Shown here piece after piece: positions 14,190-63,039 of a stretch of DNA of 64,000 nucleotides. Source of the DNA: an uncultured Kangiella sp. (GTDB taxonomy: Bacteria; Pseudomonadota; Gammaproteobacteria; Enterobacterales; Kangiellaceae). The stretch lies in NCBI GenBank assembly GCA_947498625.1, contig CANMKR010000001.1, positions 302,090-366,089 of the forward strand, in the 5' to 3' direction. Numbering within the stretch: the stretch's first letter is position 1; each line of letters starts with the position of its first letter. Made by a program: the position numbers and the translations under genes. The notes beneath the pieces were generated by a model. That model was not told the origin of the DNA. It did not search any database and was given only the letters and a program-made list of their open reading frames with translations.

Positions 14190-14564
14190 TTAACCCATAT
14201 TCATGTAATAGAAGTTGCATTTATTGCCGTCTAAATCTCTAAAATAACCCGCATAAAAACCATCGCTACGCGGACCAGATGGGCCTTCGCAACTGGCGCC
14301 AAGCTCAATCGCCCTGGCATACATAGTGTCTACATGTTCTGGCGACTGGAGTTCGAATGCCAGCATAACACCATTGCCCACTGTAGCTGGTTTACCGTCG
14401 AAAGGCTTATTTAAACCCATTCCTGTACTGCCATTGGGGCCAATCCAAGCAATAAAAGAATCCGTTTCCATCATCCGTTTACCACCAATTTCAGTAATTA
14501 AAGTCTCCCAGAACACTGACGAGCGCTCCAAGTCGTTAGTACCAATAGTGACATAACCAATCAT
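14190..14564 (-). CDS. VOC-family (glyoxalase/dioxygenase-like) protein
   Basis: 124 residues, one vicinal-oxygen-chelate module with two beta-alpha-beta-beta-beta units: VTIGTNDLERSSVFWETLI at the start and GFYAGYFRDLDGNKCNFYYM at the end. Single-module proteins of this kind dimerise and bind a metal; the D-x-D-G-N-K motif is typical. Substrate unknown. GGAGG lies five bases before ATG 14564. Operon with the DUF1304 gene. Confidence 0.87.
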   Translation of the reverse strand: MIGYVTIGTNDLERSSVFWETLITEIGGKRMMETDSFIAWIGPNGSTGMGLNKPFDGKPATVGNGVMLAFELQSPEHVDTMYARAIELGASCEGPSGPRSDGFYAGYFRDLDGNKCNFYYMNMG

Positions 14565-14671
14565 AAAACCTCCAAAATCAATGATTTATCTGCAATTGAG
14601 AGAACCACTATATAAATAATTAAGATGAAAATGAAACTTATTGCTTATATTTACCTCTTATTTACTAGAAA

Positions 14672-14698
14672 TTGGCACTCTAAGAGTGTGAGTGCTAA
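14672..14698 (+). promoter_or_regulatory. CIRCE operator (upstream copy) before rpoH
   Basis: TTGGCACTC-N9-GAGTGCTAA, one mismatch from the CIRCE consensus TTAGCACTC-N9-GAGTGCTAA, with the exact nine-base spacer. CIRCE is the binding site of the heat-shock repressor HrcA, which this window encodes at 56369-57406. Its centre lies 31 bases from the centre of the second copy, about three helical turns, so both would face the same side of the DNA. Confidence 0.88.
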
Positions 14699-14702
14699 AA
14701 AA

Positions 14703-14729
14703 TTAGCACTCTAAATAAAAGAGTGCTAA
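14703..14729 (+). promoter_or_regulatory. CIRCE operator (perfect copy) overlapping the rpoH promoter
   Basis: A perfect TTAGCACTC-N9-GAGTGCTAA (N9 = TAAATAAAA). A candidate promoter overlaps it: TTAGCA (14703-14708), 18 bases, TAATAT (14727-14732). HrcA bound here would block RNA polymerase. The rpoH start codon follows 31 bases later with an AGGAGG ribosome binding site at 14750-14755. Confidence 0.95.
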
Positions 14730-14760
14730 TATAGATTGTAAGTATTAATAGGAGGAAAGC

Positions 14761-15609
14761 ATGAGCAAAATTTCATTGTCTATGGCATTAGCCGTACCAA
14801 CAGGCAGCATCGAGGGCTATATCTCGTCTGTCAATGCAATTCCTGTCCTATCTGTAGAAGAAGAACAGGCATTAGCTCATAGCTTCAGAGATGAAGAAAA
14901 TTTAGATGCAGCACGCGAGTTAGTGATGGCTCACTTGCGTTTTGTGGCCCATATAGCAAGGGGTTATAATGGATATGGCTTGCCGCAAGCCGACCTTATT
15001 CAAGAAGGTAACATTGGTCTAATGAAGGCGGTTAAGCGTTTTGACCCGACTATGGGCGTGCGTTTAGTATCATTTGCTGTACATTGGATTAAAGCGGAAA
15101 TTCATGAGTATGTACTAAAGAATTGGCGCATTGTTAAGGTCGCGACGACTAAAGCACAGCGTAAATTGTTTTTTAATCTGCGTTCTAAGAAAAAGAAGCT
15201 TAACTGGTTAAATCAAGCGGAAGTAAAAGCCATTGCCGAAGATTTGAATGTATCACCTGAAGAAGTGATGCGAATGGAAGGGCGCTTGAATGCACATGAT
15301 GCAGCTTTTGATGCGCCTGCCATCGATGATGATGCACAAGCTTATGCTCCGGTACATTATTTGGAGTCAAAAAGCTTAGATCCGGCAGTAGAGATCGAGC
15401 AAAATGATTGGCAGGATCAGCGTGAAGCACGTTTGATGTCTGCGATGAAAACACTTGATGAGCGCAGCCAAGATATTTTGCAGCAGCGCTGGTTAACTGA
15501 TCAGAAATCAACGCTACATGAACTAGCGGATAAATACGGTGTTTCAGCAGAGCGAATACGCCAGCTCGAAAAAAATGCCATGAACAAAATCAAAAACGCC
15601 ATTTCTTAA
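14761..15609 (+). CDS. rpoH: RNA polymerase heat-shock sigma factor RpoH (sigma-32)
   Basis: 282 residues. Sigma region 2 ([38 protein letters not shown]), the RpoH-specific box QRKLFFNLR, and region 4 with the [22 protein letters not shown]. It directs RNA polymerase to heat-shock promoters. The optimal AGGAGG at five bases before ATG and the two CIRCE elements upstream suggest that here rpoH is controlled largely at transcription by HrcA. A terminator overlaps the stop codon. The gene lies downstream of ftsYEX as in Escherichia coli, but separated by two genes on the other strand. Confidence 0.97.
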
Positions 15610-56213: not shown

Positions 56214-56368
56214 TGAAGGTCCTATTTCGCTGTTTTGAATGTTTATTAAAAACAGAAACTTGTAATTGATTTATTGACCCATATTTAACAATATATAGGC
56301 AGATAAATAAACAACAGAATATTCAAGCAAAGCAAAATCTTTGCTCGAGAAATCAGAAAACAAATAAG

Positions 56369-57406
56369 ATGAGTAAATTCGATCAGCGCGCCCAGACCTT
56401 AATGAAGACTTTGGTAGAGACGTATATCTCTAGCGGGCAGCCTGTCGGTTCGAAAACCTTATTAGAGCAATCTCAGCTGAGTGTGAGTCCAGCAACCATC
56501 CGTAACGTGATGCACGACCTAGAAGCAATGGGTTTATTGGCATCACCGCACACTTCTGCTGGGCGTATTCCAACTTCACAGGGTGTAAGATTATTTGTTG
56601 ATCAACTATTAACGGTTAAAGATGTTGAGCAAAATTATCAAGATCAACTAAAGCATCAGCTTGATAAAGCCACCGAAACAGGGCAAATGTTGAATAGTGT
56701 GACTAATATGCTCTCACAAATGACCAATATGGCGGGTTTGATTCGAGTTCCAAGACGTGATGTCACTTGTGTTAGACAAGTCGAATTTGTGTCTTTATCG
56801 CAAAAGAAAGTGTTAGTGATATTGGTGTTGGATAATGGCGAAGTGCAAAATCGTGTGATCCAGCTGGATGTTGATATTAGTCGCGAGGAATTGCAGCAAG
56901 CGGCTAATTATGTGAATCATCATTATGCTGGCAAAGAGCTGGATACAGTGCGTCGCGAGTTATTTGAGGAACTAAAATCCGACAAAGCGCAGATGGATGA
57001 AATGATGACCTCCATGATGGCAGTAGCCGAAAAAGGTTTCGCTAATGATGATGGTCAAGATGAGCAAGTACAGATCACAGGTAAATCACAAATGTTAAAT
57101 TATGTGGGTACCGGCGATATTTCTGATTTACAGTCGGTTTTTGATGCTTTTGCCGAAAAGACCCAGATGCTAGGCTTGCTCGATAAATGTCTTTCAGCCG
57201 ATGGTGTTCAATTGTTTATTGGCGAAGAATCGGGCTATGACGTTTTGAACCAATGTTCGGTTGTTGGCGCTCCTTATTCTATTGACGGTCAGGCGGTTGG
57301 TGTCTTGGCTGTAGTAGGCCCGACTCGTATGGCCTATGACAAGGTGATACCAATCGTTGATATTACCGCAAAAATCCTGACTTCCGCCTTGAATTCTGAG
57401 TCCTAG
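56369..57406 (+). CDS. hrcA: Heat-inducible transcription repressor HrcA
   Basis: 345 residues. N-terminal winged helix (DQRAQTLMKTLVETYISSGQPVGSKTL, VSPATIRNVMHDLEAMGLL, HTSAGRIPT), followed by the GAF-like and dimerisation domains. HrcA binds CIRCE when folded with help from GroEL. Its own upstream region shows no CIRCE, but rpoH at 14761 has two copies. Begins the hrcA-grpE...dnaK-dnaJ region. Confidence 0.97.
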   Translation: MSKFDQRAQTLMKTLVETYISSGQPVGSKTLLEQSQLSVSPATIRNVMHDLEAMGLLASPHTSAGRIPTSQGVRLFVDQLLTVKDVEQNYQDQLKHQLDKATETGQMLNSVTNMLSQMTNMAGLIRVPRRDVTCVRQVEFVSLSQKKVLVILVLDNGEVQNRVIQLDVDISREELQQAANYVNHHYAGKELDTVRRELFEELKSDKAQMDEMMTSMMAVAEKGFANDDGQDEQVQITGKSQMLNYVGTGDISDLQSVFDAFAEKTQMLGLLDKCLSADGVQLFIGEESGYDVLNQCSVVGAPYSIDGQAVGVLAVVGPTRMAYDKVIPIVDITAKILTSALNSES

Positions 57407-57465: not shown

Positions 57466-58074
57466 ATGTCTGAAAAAGACGTTAAAAATCAAGAAGATAT
57501 TAAGGCTGTAAAAGATGCAGCTGTAGAAACCGCTGCTGAGCAGGTGGAAGATATAATGGCTGATCTTGGTGAAGAGCTGCTAAATGAAGAGTTAACTGGC
57601 GATGCTGCCCGTATAGATGAATTAGAAAAAGCACTAGAAGATGCAGAAGCCAAAGCCGCTGAGAATATGGATCTAGCACTTCGCACTAAAGCTGAGGCAG
57701 AAAATATTCGTCGCCGTAGTGAAAACGAAGTATCCAATGCACGAAAATTTGCTATCGAGAAATTCGCAAATGAAATGTTGGCTGTGGTTGACAGTTTAGA
57801 ACAAGGGTTAGCGCAAAAAGCTGAGCATGAAGAATCTATTGCCATGAAAGAAGGTATGGAGTTGACGCTTAAGATGACTTTATCAACCTTAGAAAAATTT
57901 GGTATAGAGCAACTTAACCCAATCGAAGAAGTGTTTGATCCTCAGTTGCATGAAGCAATGACTATGGTACCAAGTCCTGCACATGAATCGAATACAGTGA
58001 TTGATGTGTTCCAAAAGGGTTATACCTTAAATGGTAGGCTGATTCGTCCAGCACGAGTTGTAGTAGCGCAATAA
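57466..58074 (+). CDS. grpE: Nucleotide exchange factor GrpE
   Basis: 202 residues. An acidic N-terminal extension precedes the long coiled coil (about 45-105, DELEKALEDAEAKAAENM...RTKAEAENIRRR), then the GrpE signature FAIEKFANEMLAVVDSLEQGL and a C-terminal beta domain ending FQKGYTLNGRLIRPARVVVAQ. It speeds ADP release from DnaK. Starts 60 bases after hrcA; followed by a terminator. Confidence 0.97.
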   Translation: MSEKDVKNQEDIKAVKDAAVETAAEQVEDIMADLGEELLNEELTGDAARIDELEKALEDAEAKAAENMDLALRTKAEAENIRRRSENEVSNARKFAIEKFANEMLAVVDSLEQGLAQKAEHEESIAMKEGMELTLKMTLSTLEKFGIEQLNPIEEVFDPQLHEAMTMVPSPAHESNTVIDVFQKGYTLNGRLIRPARVVVAQ

Positions 58075-59692: not shown

Positions 59693-59720
59693 CTTGATCT
59701 CCTAAAGCCAGCCCACATAT
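59693..59720 (+). promoter_or_regulatory. Sigma-32-like promoter of dnaK
   Basis: CTTGATC (59693-59699), 12 bases, then CCCACATAT (59712-59720). Compared with the sigma-32 consensus CTTGAAA and CCCCATNT it fits well. It lies 42 bases before the dnaK ATG, which has GGAG eight bases upstream. Confidence 0.6.
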
Positions 59721-59762: not shown

Positions 59763-61700
59763 ATGGGCAAGATTATCGGTATCGATTTAGGTACAACCAA
59801 TTCATGTGTTGCTGTGTTAGACGGCGACAAAGCTCGTGTAATCGAGAACTCTGAAGGCGGTCGTACGACTCCTTCTATCATCGCTTTCACAGACGGTGAA
59901 ACTTTAGTTGGCCAGTCGGCAAAGCGTCAGGCAGTGACTAATCCAGAGAACACTTTATATGCGATTAAGCGTTTGATCGGTCGTAAGTTTAAAAGTGATG
60001 TTGTACAGAAAGACATCGAGATGGTGCCTTACAAGATCGTTGAAGCGGACAATGGTGACGCTTGGGTATCGGTTAATGGTAAAAATATGGCTCCACCACA
60101 AGTTTCAGCTGAAGTTCTTAAGAAAATGAAGAAAACAGCCGAAGACTTCTTAGGTGAAGAAGTAACTGAAGCGGTTATTACGGTTCCTGCATACTTCAAT
60201 GACTCACAACGTCAAGCGACTAAAGACGCAGGTAAAATCGCGGGCTTAGAAGTGAAGCGTATTATCAATGAGCCTACTGCTGCGGCATTAGCTTATGGTA
60301 TGGATAAAGAACGTGGCGATCGCACTATTGCAGTTTATGATTTAGGTGGTGGTACTTTCGATATCTCAGTGATTGAGATTGCTGAAGTTGACGGCGAGCA
60401 CACCTTCGAAGTATTGGCGACTAATGGTGACACTTTCTTAGGTGGTGAAGATTTCGATAACCGCGTTATCCAATATCTAGCAGAAGAGTTCAAGAAAGAA
60501 CAAGGTATCGACCTTAAAGGCGACGCGCTTGCGATGCAACGTTTGAAAGAAGCGGGCGAGAAAGCAAAGATTGAATTATCTTCTAGCTCGCAAACGGATG
60601 TTAACTTACCTTACATCACTGCTGATGCAACCGGTCCTAAGCACTTAAACATCAAGCTAACTCGTGCAAAATTAGAGTCTTTGGTTGAAGATTTAATTGA
60701 GCGTTCAATGGCGCCAGTTAAGCAAGCGCTACAAGACGCTGGTTTATCAACTTCTGAAATCGACGATGTGATTTTAGTAGGTGGCCAGACTCGTATGCCT
60801 AAAGTACAAGAGTCAGTAACGGCTTTCTTCGGCAAAGAGCCTCGTAAAGACGTTAATCCTGATGAAGCAGTAGCGATGGGTGCGGCGATTCAAGGCGCGG
60901 TATTAGCGGGTGACGTTAAAGACGTATTACTATTAGACGTAACACCTTTGTCTCTAGGTATTGAGACTATGGGTGGTGTGATGACCAACTTAATCGATAA
61001 GAATACAACGATTCCGACTAAGGCATCGCAAGTATTCTCGACGGCAGAAGATAACCAAACTGCGGTAACGGTTCACGTATTACAGGGTGAGCGTAAAATG
61101 GCTCAACAGAATAAATCTCTAGGCCGTTTCGACTTAGCTGATATTCCACCTGCACCACGTGGTATGCCACAAATCGAAGTATCTTTTGATATCGATGCTA
61201 ACGGTATCATGCACGTTTCTGCAAAAGATAAAGCTACTGGTAAAGAGCAATCGATTCAGATCAAAGCGTCTTCTGGTTTATCGGATGAAGAAATCGAGCA
61301 AATGGTTCAAGACGCCGAAGCTCACGCTGAAGAAGATAAGAAGTTCCAAGAGCTAGTCGAAGCTCGTAACCAAGCGGACGGTCTTGTTCACGCTAGCCGT
61401 AAATCTTTGAATGATGAAAATGTCACTTTCGAAGATGGCGAGAAAGAAGCGATTGAAGCAGCAGCCAATGATTTAGAAGAAGCGATTAAGACTGATGATT
61501 TAGAAGAAATCAAAGCTAAGACTGAAGCCTTAAGTCAAGCCTCTGCAAAGTTAGCTGAGCGTATGTACGCACAAGCTCAACAGCAAGCGGAAGCTGGTGC
61601 AGGCTCTCAATCTGGTCCTGGAGCAGAGCAAGCTTCAAATGCTGGCGATGATGTGGTTGACGCTGAGTTTGAAGAAGTAAAGGACGATAAAAATTCGTAG
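59763..61700 (+). CDS. dnaK: Molecular chaperone DnaK (Hsp70)
   Basis: 645 residues, full length. [29 protein letters not shown] and VGGQTRMP in the ATPase domain, [14 protein letters not shown] in the substrate-binding domain, a helical lid and the C-terminal [13 protein letters not shown]. Works with DnaJ and GrpE. It probably has its own sigma-32 promoter and is separated from grpE by two genes and a terminator. Confidence 0.99.
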
Positions 61701-61902: not shown

Positions 61903-63039
61903 ATGTCTAAACGTGATTATTACGAAGTATTAGGTGTTGGCAAAAGTGCTGATAAGGCAGAGCTGAAAAAAGCTTACCGTCGATTGGCGATGAAAAACCA
62001 CCCTGATCGTAATCCTGATGACAAAGAGGCGGAGGCGCGTTTTAAAGAAGCGAAAGAAGCCTACGAAGTATTAAATGATCCGCAAAAGCGTCAAGCTTAT
62101 GATCAGTTTGGTCATGCCGGTGTTGACCAAAGTGCTGGTGGTCAAGGTGGTTTCCATGGCGCTGATATGGGTGACATTTTTGGCGATATGTTTGGCGATA
62201 TCTTTGGTGGTGGCGGTCGTCGCGGCGGCGGTCGAGCAGGACCACAACGTGGTTCTGACTTGCAATACAATATGCAGGTGACACTAGAAGAAGCGGTTAA
62301 CGGCGTGTCGAAAACCATTAAGGTTCCAACTTACGTTGATTGTGAGCCATGTGATGGTTCTGGTGCTAAGAAAGGTTCCGAGAAAGTCACTTGTGGAACT
62401 TGTAATGGCCAAGGCCAAGTGCGTATGACCCAAGGTTTTTTCTCAGTTCAACAAACGTGTCCGGATTGTCAGGGACAGGGACAAACTATTAAAGATCCTT
62501 GTAACTCTTGTTCTGGTCAAGGCCGTGTGCATAAAACCAAAACCTTGTCTGTAAAAATTCCTGCAGGTGTTGATACTGGCGATCGTATTCGCTTATCGGG
62601 CGAAGGCGAAGCGGGTGGCCCCGGTGCTCCATCGGGCGATTTGTATGTTCAAATCAATGTTAAAGAGCATGAGATTTTTGTCCGAGATGGCGCCAACCTT
62701 TACGCCGAAGTTCCTGTCAGTTTTGTCACTGCAGCATTAGGCGGAACCTTACAAGTGCCAACACTAGATGGCAAAGTAAGTTTGAAAATTCCTGCGGAAA
62801 CGCAAACCGGTAAAATGTTCCGGTTAAAAGGCAAAGGCATAAAAGCCTTACGTCAAAATTATACTGGCGACCTGATGTGTCGTGTAATTTTGGAAACTCC
62901 AGTTAAACTAAGCAAAGAGCAAAAAGAATTGCTAGAACAGTTCCAGCAGAGCGTTGCAGAGTCGGGCGGTAAGAATAGCCCCAAAGAAACCGGTTGGTTC
63001 GATGGTGTTAAAAAATTCTGGGATAATATGACCAGTTAA
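61903..63039 (+). CDS. dnaJ: Co-chaperone DnaJ (Hsp40)
   Basis: 378 residues. J domain with H33-P34-D35, a Gly/Phe region (about 75-120) with [13 protein letters not shown], four C-x2-C-x-G-x-G zinc repeats ([32 protein letters not shown]), and the C-terminal substrate-binding domain. It delivers substrates to DnaK. Only a weak ribosome binding site (GAAGAAA) precedes ATG. Confidence 0.98.

Follow-up and report, generated by a model that had tools for sequence, protein, structure and literature searches.

What do two copies of CIRCE, the operator that the repressor HrcA is expected to bind, do in front of the gene for the heat-shock sigma factor sigma-32? The question is raised by a 64,000-nucleotide stretch from the genome of a marine bacterium, a Kangiella (class Gammaproteobacteria), referred to here as the window. 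Two inverted repeats that follow the CIRCE consensus, TTAGCACTC-N9-GAGTGCTAA, lie on its forward strand. CIRCE-1 (14672..14698) reads TTGGCACTC-N9-GAGTGCTAA and deviates from the consensus at one position; CIRCE-2 (14703..14729) is perfect and lies 31 bp downstream, measured from centre to centre. A motif scan allowing up to three mismatches finds exactly these two putative HrcA operators in the window. The expectation from shuffled windows is 0.05 copies (sd 0.22) and none of 100 shuffles contains two, which bears out the original prediction of one perfect and one single-mismatch site.

The gene that follows is rpoH (14761..15609, forward strand), which starts 31 bases beyond the end of CIRCE-2 and is preceded by a Shine-Dalgarno sequence, AGGAGG, read directly at 14750..14755. 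It lies downstream of ftsE and ftsX, with two reverse open reading frames intervening. Its identification as the sigma-32 gene holds: the product matches TIGR02392 with 412 bits against a cut-off of 323, and the genome search yielded no further rpoH. A second copy was rejected, the sole other match being 28% identical and situated in a frame of 624 amino acids. In named records with the same locus, RpoH is 94% and 80% identical in Kangiella and 66–68% identical in Aliikangiella.

CIRCE operators in Kangiella and its family

Is the tandem peculiar to this genome? The window genome was compared with 60 relatives, of which G001–G019 are congeners and G020–G036 the rest of the family Kangiellaceae. 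One genome (G040) stood outside the upstream comparison, and the counts exclude the additional rpoH-like copies of G029, G047, and G052. rpoH was found in 35 of the 37 family genomes. The upstream regions of relatives, named in the original prediction as a place to look, carry a CIRCE with at most two mismatches within 400 bp of rpoH in all 35 cases; together with the shuffle statistics this rules out chance palindromes. The site is a tandem in 29 of the 35, with copies 29–34 bp apart and up to four mismatches allowed, and single in the remaining six (G020, G022, G025, G027, G030, and G033).

Within the genus (n = 20), every genome has a copy spacing of 31 bp and a linker of 4 bp, and the second CIRCE ends 31–36 bp from the rpoH start. 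Mean identity over these genomes is 94% in the arms of CIRCE-1 and 43% in its spacer, 96% and 62% for CIRCE-2, and 40% in the 40 bp upstream of the tandem, aligned without gaps. Since the arms are conserved while the spacers have diverged, the pattern is that of a protein-binding site under selection. Genome G029 also has a second, broken rpoH-like copy on contig C30 (L200; 50% identity, with seven stops in the match), upstream of which lie a perfect CIRCE and one with four mismatches.

Which other genes have such an operator? A scan of the whole 2.32 Mb genome, which had been proposed as a check, finds CIRCE with at most two mismatches in three places: the rpoH pair and a site before groES-groEL (C4:99426-99452). 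The groESL operator lies outside the 64-kb window and was hence invisible to the original prediction. A fourth match, with three mismatches, falls inside an open reading frame read as SmpB from its translation and was set aside as probably due to chance. Within the window, the scan at up to three mismatches detects no CIRCE before hrcA (56369..57406; TIGR00331, 325 bits against a cut-off of 197), grpE (57466..58074; NCBIfam NF010748 (PRK14150), 206.5 bits against 152), dnaK (59763..61700; TIGR02350, 969 bits), or dnaJ (starting at 61903); the first three lie on the forward strand. The repressor gene, whose upstream sequence was also read, thus has no operator of its own, and the predicted contrast between hrcA, grpE, and dnaK, which lack CIRCE, and rpoH, which has two, is upheld.

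The sigma-32-like matches before hrcA, grpE, and dnaK score 11, 10, and 10 of 13, against a background in the window of about 0.13 matches scoring 10 or more per 300 bp. The predicted step in which sigma-32 drives dnaK comes down to one of these, a weak CTTGATC-N13-CCACAT at 59693 (10/13). The match before hrcA, CTTGTAA-N11-ACCCAT at 56259-56282, is shared by three of a further seven hrcA loci, namely the closest ones, and sigma-32 may induce hrcA from it.

In the groESL operator of the window genome, CTTGAGT occupies part of the spacer and right arm, 13 bp before CCCCAT, and CCCCAT lies downstream of the operator in all nine distinct groESL loci compared. Judged by the sigma-32 consensus in the available part of PMC545781, CTTGAGT-N13-CCCCAT is a promoter of that type. 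As the groESL CIRCE overlaps this promoter, HrcA would act on rpoH and also on a sigma-32 target. The original prediction had pictured a hierarchy, with HrcA repressing rpoH and sigma-32 then driving dnaK. Repression of rpoH gains strong comparative support from the arms and spacers, from co-occurrence with hrcA, and from a placement at rpoH that many families share. A pure hierarchy does not stand, since groESL has its own CIRCE; HrcA would therefore act on groESL both directly and through sigma-32.

Promoter elements at the operators

Which promoters would these operators control? By direct reading, the forward strand upstream of CIRCE-1 contains a sigma-E-type -35 element, TGAAACTT (14632..14639), and a sigma-E-type -10 element, TCTTA (14656..14660), 16 bp after AACTT, which gives the motif GAAACTT-N16-TCTTA. 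A GAACTT-type -35 element followed after 16–17 bp by TCNNA is what we take, from the general consensus, to be a sigma-E promoter. The window genome has rpoE (TIGR02939, 319.5 bits against a cut-off of 236), and Kangiella rpoH would be transcribed by sigma-E from this motif.

Alignment of the rpoH upstream regions recovers GAAACTT or GGAACTT, 16–17 bp, and TCTNA. Upstream of rpoH, 33 of the 35 family genomes have AACTT followed after 16–17 bp by TCNNA or TCTAT, whereas 100 Markov-resampled sets average 0.86 and never exceed 4; by the pattern used, G022 and G026 have no such motif. The original prediction had placed a candidate promoter at the operators. The conserved one is of sigma-E type (GAACTT-N16/17-TCTNA), corresponding to P3 of E. 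coli rpoH, and had not been part of that prediction.

The relation of this motif to the operator varies within the family. In 23 of the 35 genomes (23 of the 33 with the motif), the -10 box lies inside the first or only CIRCE, starting 7 bp into it, so that two bases of the left arm, TC, and the adjoining three of the spacer double as the -10 element. It starts 15–16 bp before CIRCE-1 in the subgroup of six to which the window belongs, where repression would therefore block the start region, and 7 to 26 bp before CIRCE in G008, G020, G025, and G027. The motif also occurs upstream of rpoH in eight of the 21 relatives that belong to the order but not to the family, seven of them with no CIRCE at up to four mismatches.

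The promoter that had been predicted to overlap the perfect CIRCE is of another kind. TTAGCA in the left arm of CIRCE-2 (14703..14708, forward strand) is a possible sigma-70 -35 element with four of six consensus bases, and TAATAT at the edge of CIRCE-2 (14727..14732, forward strand) a possible -10 element, 18 bp after TTAGCA and conforming to a conserved TAnnnT. Counted by hand, the two hexamers have eight of 12 consensus bases, below the nine of 12 at 16–18 bp spacing taken as the criterion, and a strict sigma-70 promoter scan of 14400-14900 lists nothing; the housekeeping promoter is therefore named only sigma-70-like. The predicted overlap is thus supported by the conservation of TAnnnT at this place, but the promoter itself is weak.

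The two elements are distributed unequally over the tandem. All 29 tandems have TAnnnT after the second copy and none has it after the first, while TCTNA is found in 22 first copies and nine second copies. Among 112 rpoH operators from the class (from the best 150 of 345 rpoH genomes, described below), TAnnnT is present in 106 and TCTNA in 61. Nine distinct groESL operators (L003 and L007 being one locus) served as a control and have TAnnnT once, at the window genome's own site, and TCTNA twice. Conservation of TAnnnT is what suggests use of a housekeeping promoter at CIRCE-2. Many relatives thus have a single operator overlapping two promoters, where the tandem has two operators, each overlapping one.

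Co-occurrence with hrcA and wider distribution

Does CIRCE at rpoH follow the presence of its repressor? Of the 61 genomes comprising the window genome and its relatives, 35 have hrcA and 38 have CIRCE with at most two mismatches. Among the 24 order genomes outside the family, hrcA was found only in G049, which is also the only one with CIRCE at that threshold, including a site before rpoH. Three family genomes have no detected hrcA. Two of them (G025 and G027) keep a single site with two mismatches at rpoH; in the third (G035) rpoH was not found and a perfect CIRCE remains before groESL. There is a slight hint here that CIRCE decays at rpoH once hrcA is gone, and only a hint because hrcA-positive genomes of the family also have single sites (G020, G022, G030, and G033) or a best site with two mismatches (G024). 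An order genome without detected hrcA (G039, 89% complete) has a three-mismatch CIRCE before rpoH (L201), perhaps a relic.

A larger sample was assembled by RpoH similarity, because choice by motif was to be avoided: the 150 of 345 rpoH genomes with the RpoH closest to that of Kangiella, window included, in which 400 bp upstream of rpoH were read. In these best 150 of 345, CIRCE with up to three mismatches is present in 113 of 123 hrcA-positive and 8 of 27 hrcA-negative genomes. Co-occurrence with hrcA thus holds with exceptions on both sides, 10 of 123 hrcA-positive genomes having no site and 8 of 27 hrcA-negative genomes having one. Six of those eight are less than 90% complete; the other two, G188 and G135, are 98–99% complete, and the site in G135 has three mismatches. 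CIRCE at rpoH had originally been presented as an unusual target. It is common in the HrcA-bearing Gammaproteobacteria sampled, and what is unusual is the tandem.

A base profile was made from the 112 hrcA-positive operators of this sample (best 150 of 345) other than that of the window genome. GGAACT is conserved 16–11 bp before the operator, at 0.34 to 0.94 bits. At the two expected offsets AACTT is exact in 49 operators, within one mismatch in 73, and beyond that in 39, whereas its mean frequency at the remaining offsets is 0.16%, the highest value being 8/112 at +26, the operator edge. Conservation within the 9-bp spacer is notable only for T at position 1 (69%) and A at position 3 (79%), which fits TCTNA. 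T is the third base past the operator in 95%, so that TAnnnT stands 18 bp downstream of TTAGCA or TTGGCA in a sigma-70-like arrangement.

How far does the combination extend? A composite pattern (sigma-E -35, CIRCE arms, and TCTNA, at most one mismatch) occurs in 103 of 369 Gammaproteobacteria genomes, against three for a reversed-pattern control, and in 98 of the 103 rpoH lies 19–194 bp downstream. The hrcA calls in these 369 genomes were copied by hand (269 at E 1e-20 or better, 270 at E 0.001, 262 over the cut-off). Composite-and-rpoH and hrcA are found together in 95 genomes, composite-and-rpoH without hrcA in 3, hrcA only in 174, and neither in 97, which corresponds to a Fisher p of about 5e-12, a value that overstates independence because the genomes share kinship. 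A draw of 398 genomes from the phylum has the composite in eight, all among the 137 inside the class and none among the 261 outside it, the split being a hand count of the listing; 8/137 is far below the 103/369 of the class draw.

The composite also stands before a ClpB-like open reading frame in G132 (L301) and a CutA-like one in G125 (L267), both named from their translations, and these are possible further targets of HrcA and sigma-E. In G381, G094, and G104 (L239, L270, and L324) it is present on both strands at one site, where divergent sigma-E-type promoters may share one operator.

The tandem at 31 bp is found in 2 of 274 genomes of the class, the window's own and G200, and G112 (30 bp) and G312 (34 bp) have tandems with a weaker second copy. 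Tandems also precede rpoH in Marinifaba aquimaris (Alteromonadaceae) and in metagenome-assembled genomes labelled Sedimenticola, Chromatiales, and Gammaproteobacteria. CIRCE-like tandems 30–33 bp apart were found in at least 118 stretches across records, most labelled Actinobacteria; by tblastn, rpoH is present in eight of the 118 listed, all labelled Gammaproteobacteria or its genera. The tandems of other phyla are like that of Kangiella in having two CIRCE-like copies at this spacing, but among the matches listed rpoH accompanies them only in records labelled Gammaproteobacteria. Four Kangiella/Aliikangiella tandem records are probably the genomes G002, G017, G021, and G028 and are not additional evidence. 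Among the matches listed, tandem CIRCE-like sites are common in Actinobacteria, chiefly Microbacterium and relatives (L068-L185), and are also seen in records labelled Saccharibacteria and Leptospiraceae.

A proposed circuit and its alternatives

What, then, would the two operators do? With a probability of roughly three in four, both repeats are HrcA operators that repress rpoH, CIRCE-1 covering or abutting the sigma-E promoter and CIRCE-2 the weaker sigma-70-like promoter. By analogy with HrcA elsewhere, the Kangiella protein would sense GroEL: GroE stimulates HrcA binding and is titrated by unfolded protein in B. subtilis and H. pylori (PMC6032397, available in part). While GroEL is free, HrcA would be active and occupy both sites, possibly cooperatively, since 31 bp is about three helical turns and would place them on the same face of the DNA; rpoH would therefore be low even with active sigma-E. 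Once unfolded protein occupies GroEL, HrcA would become inactive, both promoters would open, and sigma-32 would be made, most strongly if envelope stress had also freed sigma-E. Expression of groESL, where the one CIRCE overlaps a promoter of sigma-32 type, would rise through sigma-32 and the loss of HrcA together; sigma-32 would perhaps also raise hrcA-grpE and dnaK, where the sigma-32-like matches are weak. Newly made GroEL would restore repression by HrcA and so close the loop.

Could the bases conserved around the repeats be something other than promoters? HrcA might repress rpoH while another promoter drives it, the conserved bases being part of an extended HrcA site. The rpoH CIRCE spacers do often begin with T, 25 of the 29 second copies included, and the sigma-70-like element is weak. 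GGAACT, however, lies 11–16 bp outside the palindrome and is conserved in genomes chosen independently of the motif, and the corresponding bases differ at groESL, where TCTNA and TAnnnT mark only two and one of the nine distinct sites. Where operator and motif are separated, as in the window's subgroup and G020, the two boxes of the motif are still 16 bp apart, and in seven of the eight order relatives outside the family that have it (of 21) it stands with no CIRCE at all (up to four mismatches). We regard this explanation as unlikely. A still less probable one places the function in the RNA, with the palindromes in the 5' leader forming hairpins that alter stability or translation of the rpoH mRNA and HrcA in a secondary role. 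CIRCE within an mRNA influences stability in work on B. subtilis, and the leader folds at -32.2 kcal/mol (z -4.28; 0 of 200 shuffles as good), but strong folding is expected of any long palindrome. Over 121 sites (best 150 of 345) the arms are nearly invariant and most of the changes do not compensate each other: positions 0/26 are TA in 101, CA in 8, TG in 11, and CG in 1; positions 6/20 are CG in 106, CC in 9, GG in 3, and others in 3; positions 2/24 are AT in 81 and GT in 37, the latter of which would keep a wobble pair. The near-invariance and the few compensating changes led to the rejection of RNA structure as the main function. Moreover, the presence of CIRCE tracks hrcA, a transcript from the proximal promoter would begin past CIRCE-2, and the repeats do not include the ribosome-binding site at 14750.

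The repeats lie between rpoH and a divergently oriented gene (14190-14564), whose start is about 108 bp away, and might in principle regulate that gene instead of rpoH. This can hardly be so: the second site keeps its short distance to the rpoH start across the genus, the composite has rpoH downstream in nearly all the class genomes that possess it, and the promoter motifs face rpoH. Control of the divergent gene was rejected on the first two grounds.

How might repression of rpoH through two HrcA operators have arisen? A single ancestral operator bearing both promoters seems to have been duplicated into the tandem, and each copy would then have retained one of them; we infer this direction from the sequences compared. 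On a broader scale, the ancestral control of rpoH in Gammaproteobacteria could be a sigma-E promoter joined to an HrcA operator, through which the folding capacity of the cytoplasm, read as GroEL by HrcA, gates the envelope-stress input of sigma-E. The E. coli type would then be derived, with HrcA lost and a bare sigma-E promoter kept, and the Kangiellaceae tandem would be a duplication with one promoter per operator. The odds for and against this scenario appear to us to be even.

How does the locus compare with known systems? Geobacter sulfurreducens is placed in a different phylum in GTDB. The general biology of CIRCE and HrcA is well known, as is a single predicted CIRCE at rpoH of G. sulfurreducens (PMC545781, available in part). 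That consensus site lies 51 bp before the rpoH start, and groESL has CIRCE as well, as in Kangiella; by the same partial source, G. sulfurreducens differs in having one rpoH site instead of two and in having CIRCE also at its hrcA-grpE-dnaK-dnaJ genes (PMC545781). No sigma-E promoter of rpoH is mentioned in the available part of that paper, whereas Kangiella has a sigma-E-type motif. P3 is the sigma-E-dependent promoter of rpoH in E. coli (PMC8103513 and PMC8745692, each available in part), a species in which HrcA and CIRCE are absent according to the available part of PMC545781, whereas Kangiella has hrcA and CIRCE. In H. pylori, HrcA sites overlap core promoters (PMC6032397, available in part). 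H. pylori and other bacteria with HrcA and CIRCE at groESL and hrcA-grpE-dnaK (PMC6032397) would resemble Kangiella in operator type, core-promoter overlap, and GroE as modulator, the Kangiella side being read from sequence; the difference is that the putative targets in Kangiella include rpoH, the positive regulator of the heat-shock response. The open literature searched yielded no report of CIRCE at rpoH in Gammaproteobacteria, nor of an overlap with a sigma-E promoter; the likeliest earlier source, Permina and Gelfand 2003, lay outside the scope of the search, and absence from print is not claimed.

What would such a circuit mean for the heat-shock response? By the consensus given above, P3 of E. 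coli rpoH is a motif of the same type as that of Kangiella. In the textbook account of sigma-32 control, drawn from E. coli, DnaK and GroEL exert their feedback at the level of the sigma-32 protein. If the proposed circuit is true in many HrcA-keeping Gammaproteobacteria, there would be a transcriptional GroEL feedback on the sigma factor, merged within a few shared bases with the input from envelope stress, and models of heat-shock regulons outside the enterics would change. A stretch of DNA that is operator and -10 element at once would be a compact test case, and the tandem, single, and lost operators of relatives offer a natural contrast that makes the role of each promoter testable. The recurrence of the site at rpoH in many HrcA-keeping relatives hints at a brake on the heat-shock response of bacteria that has received little attention.
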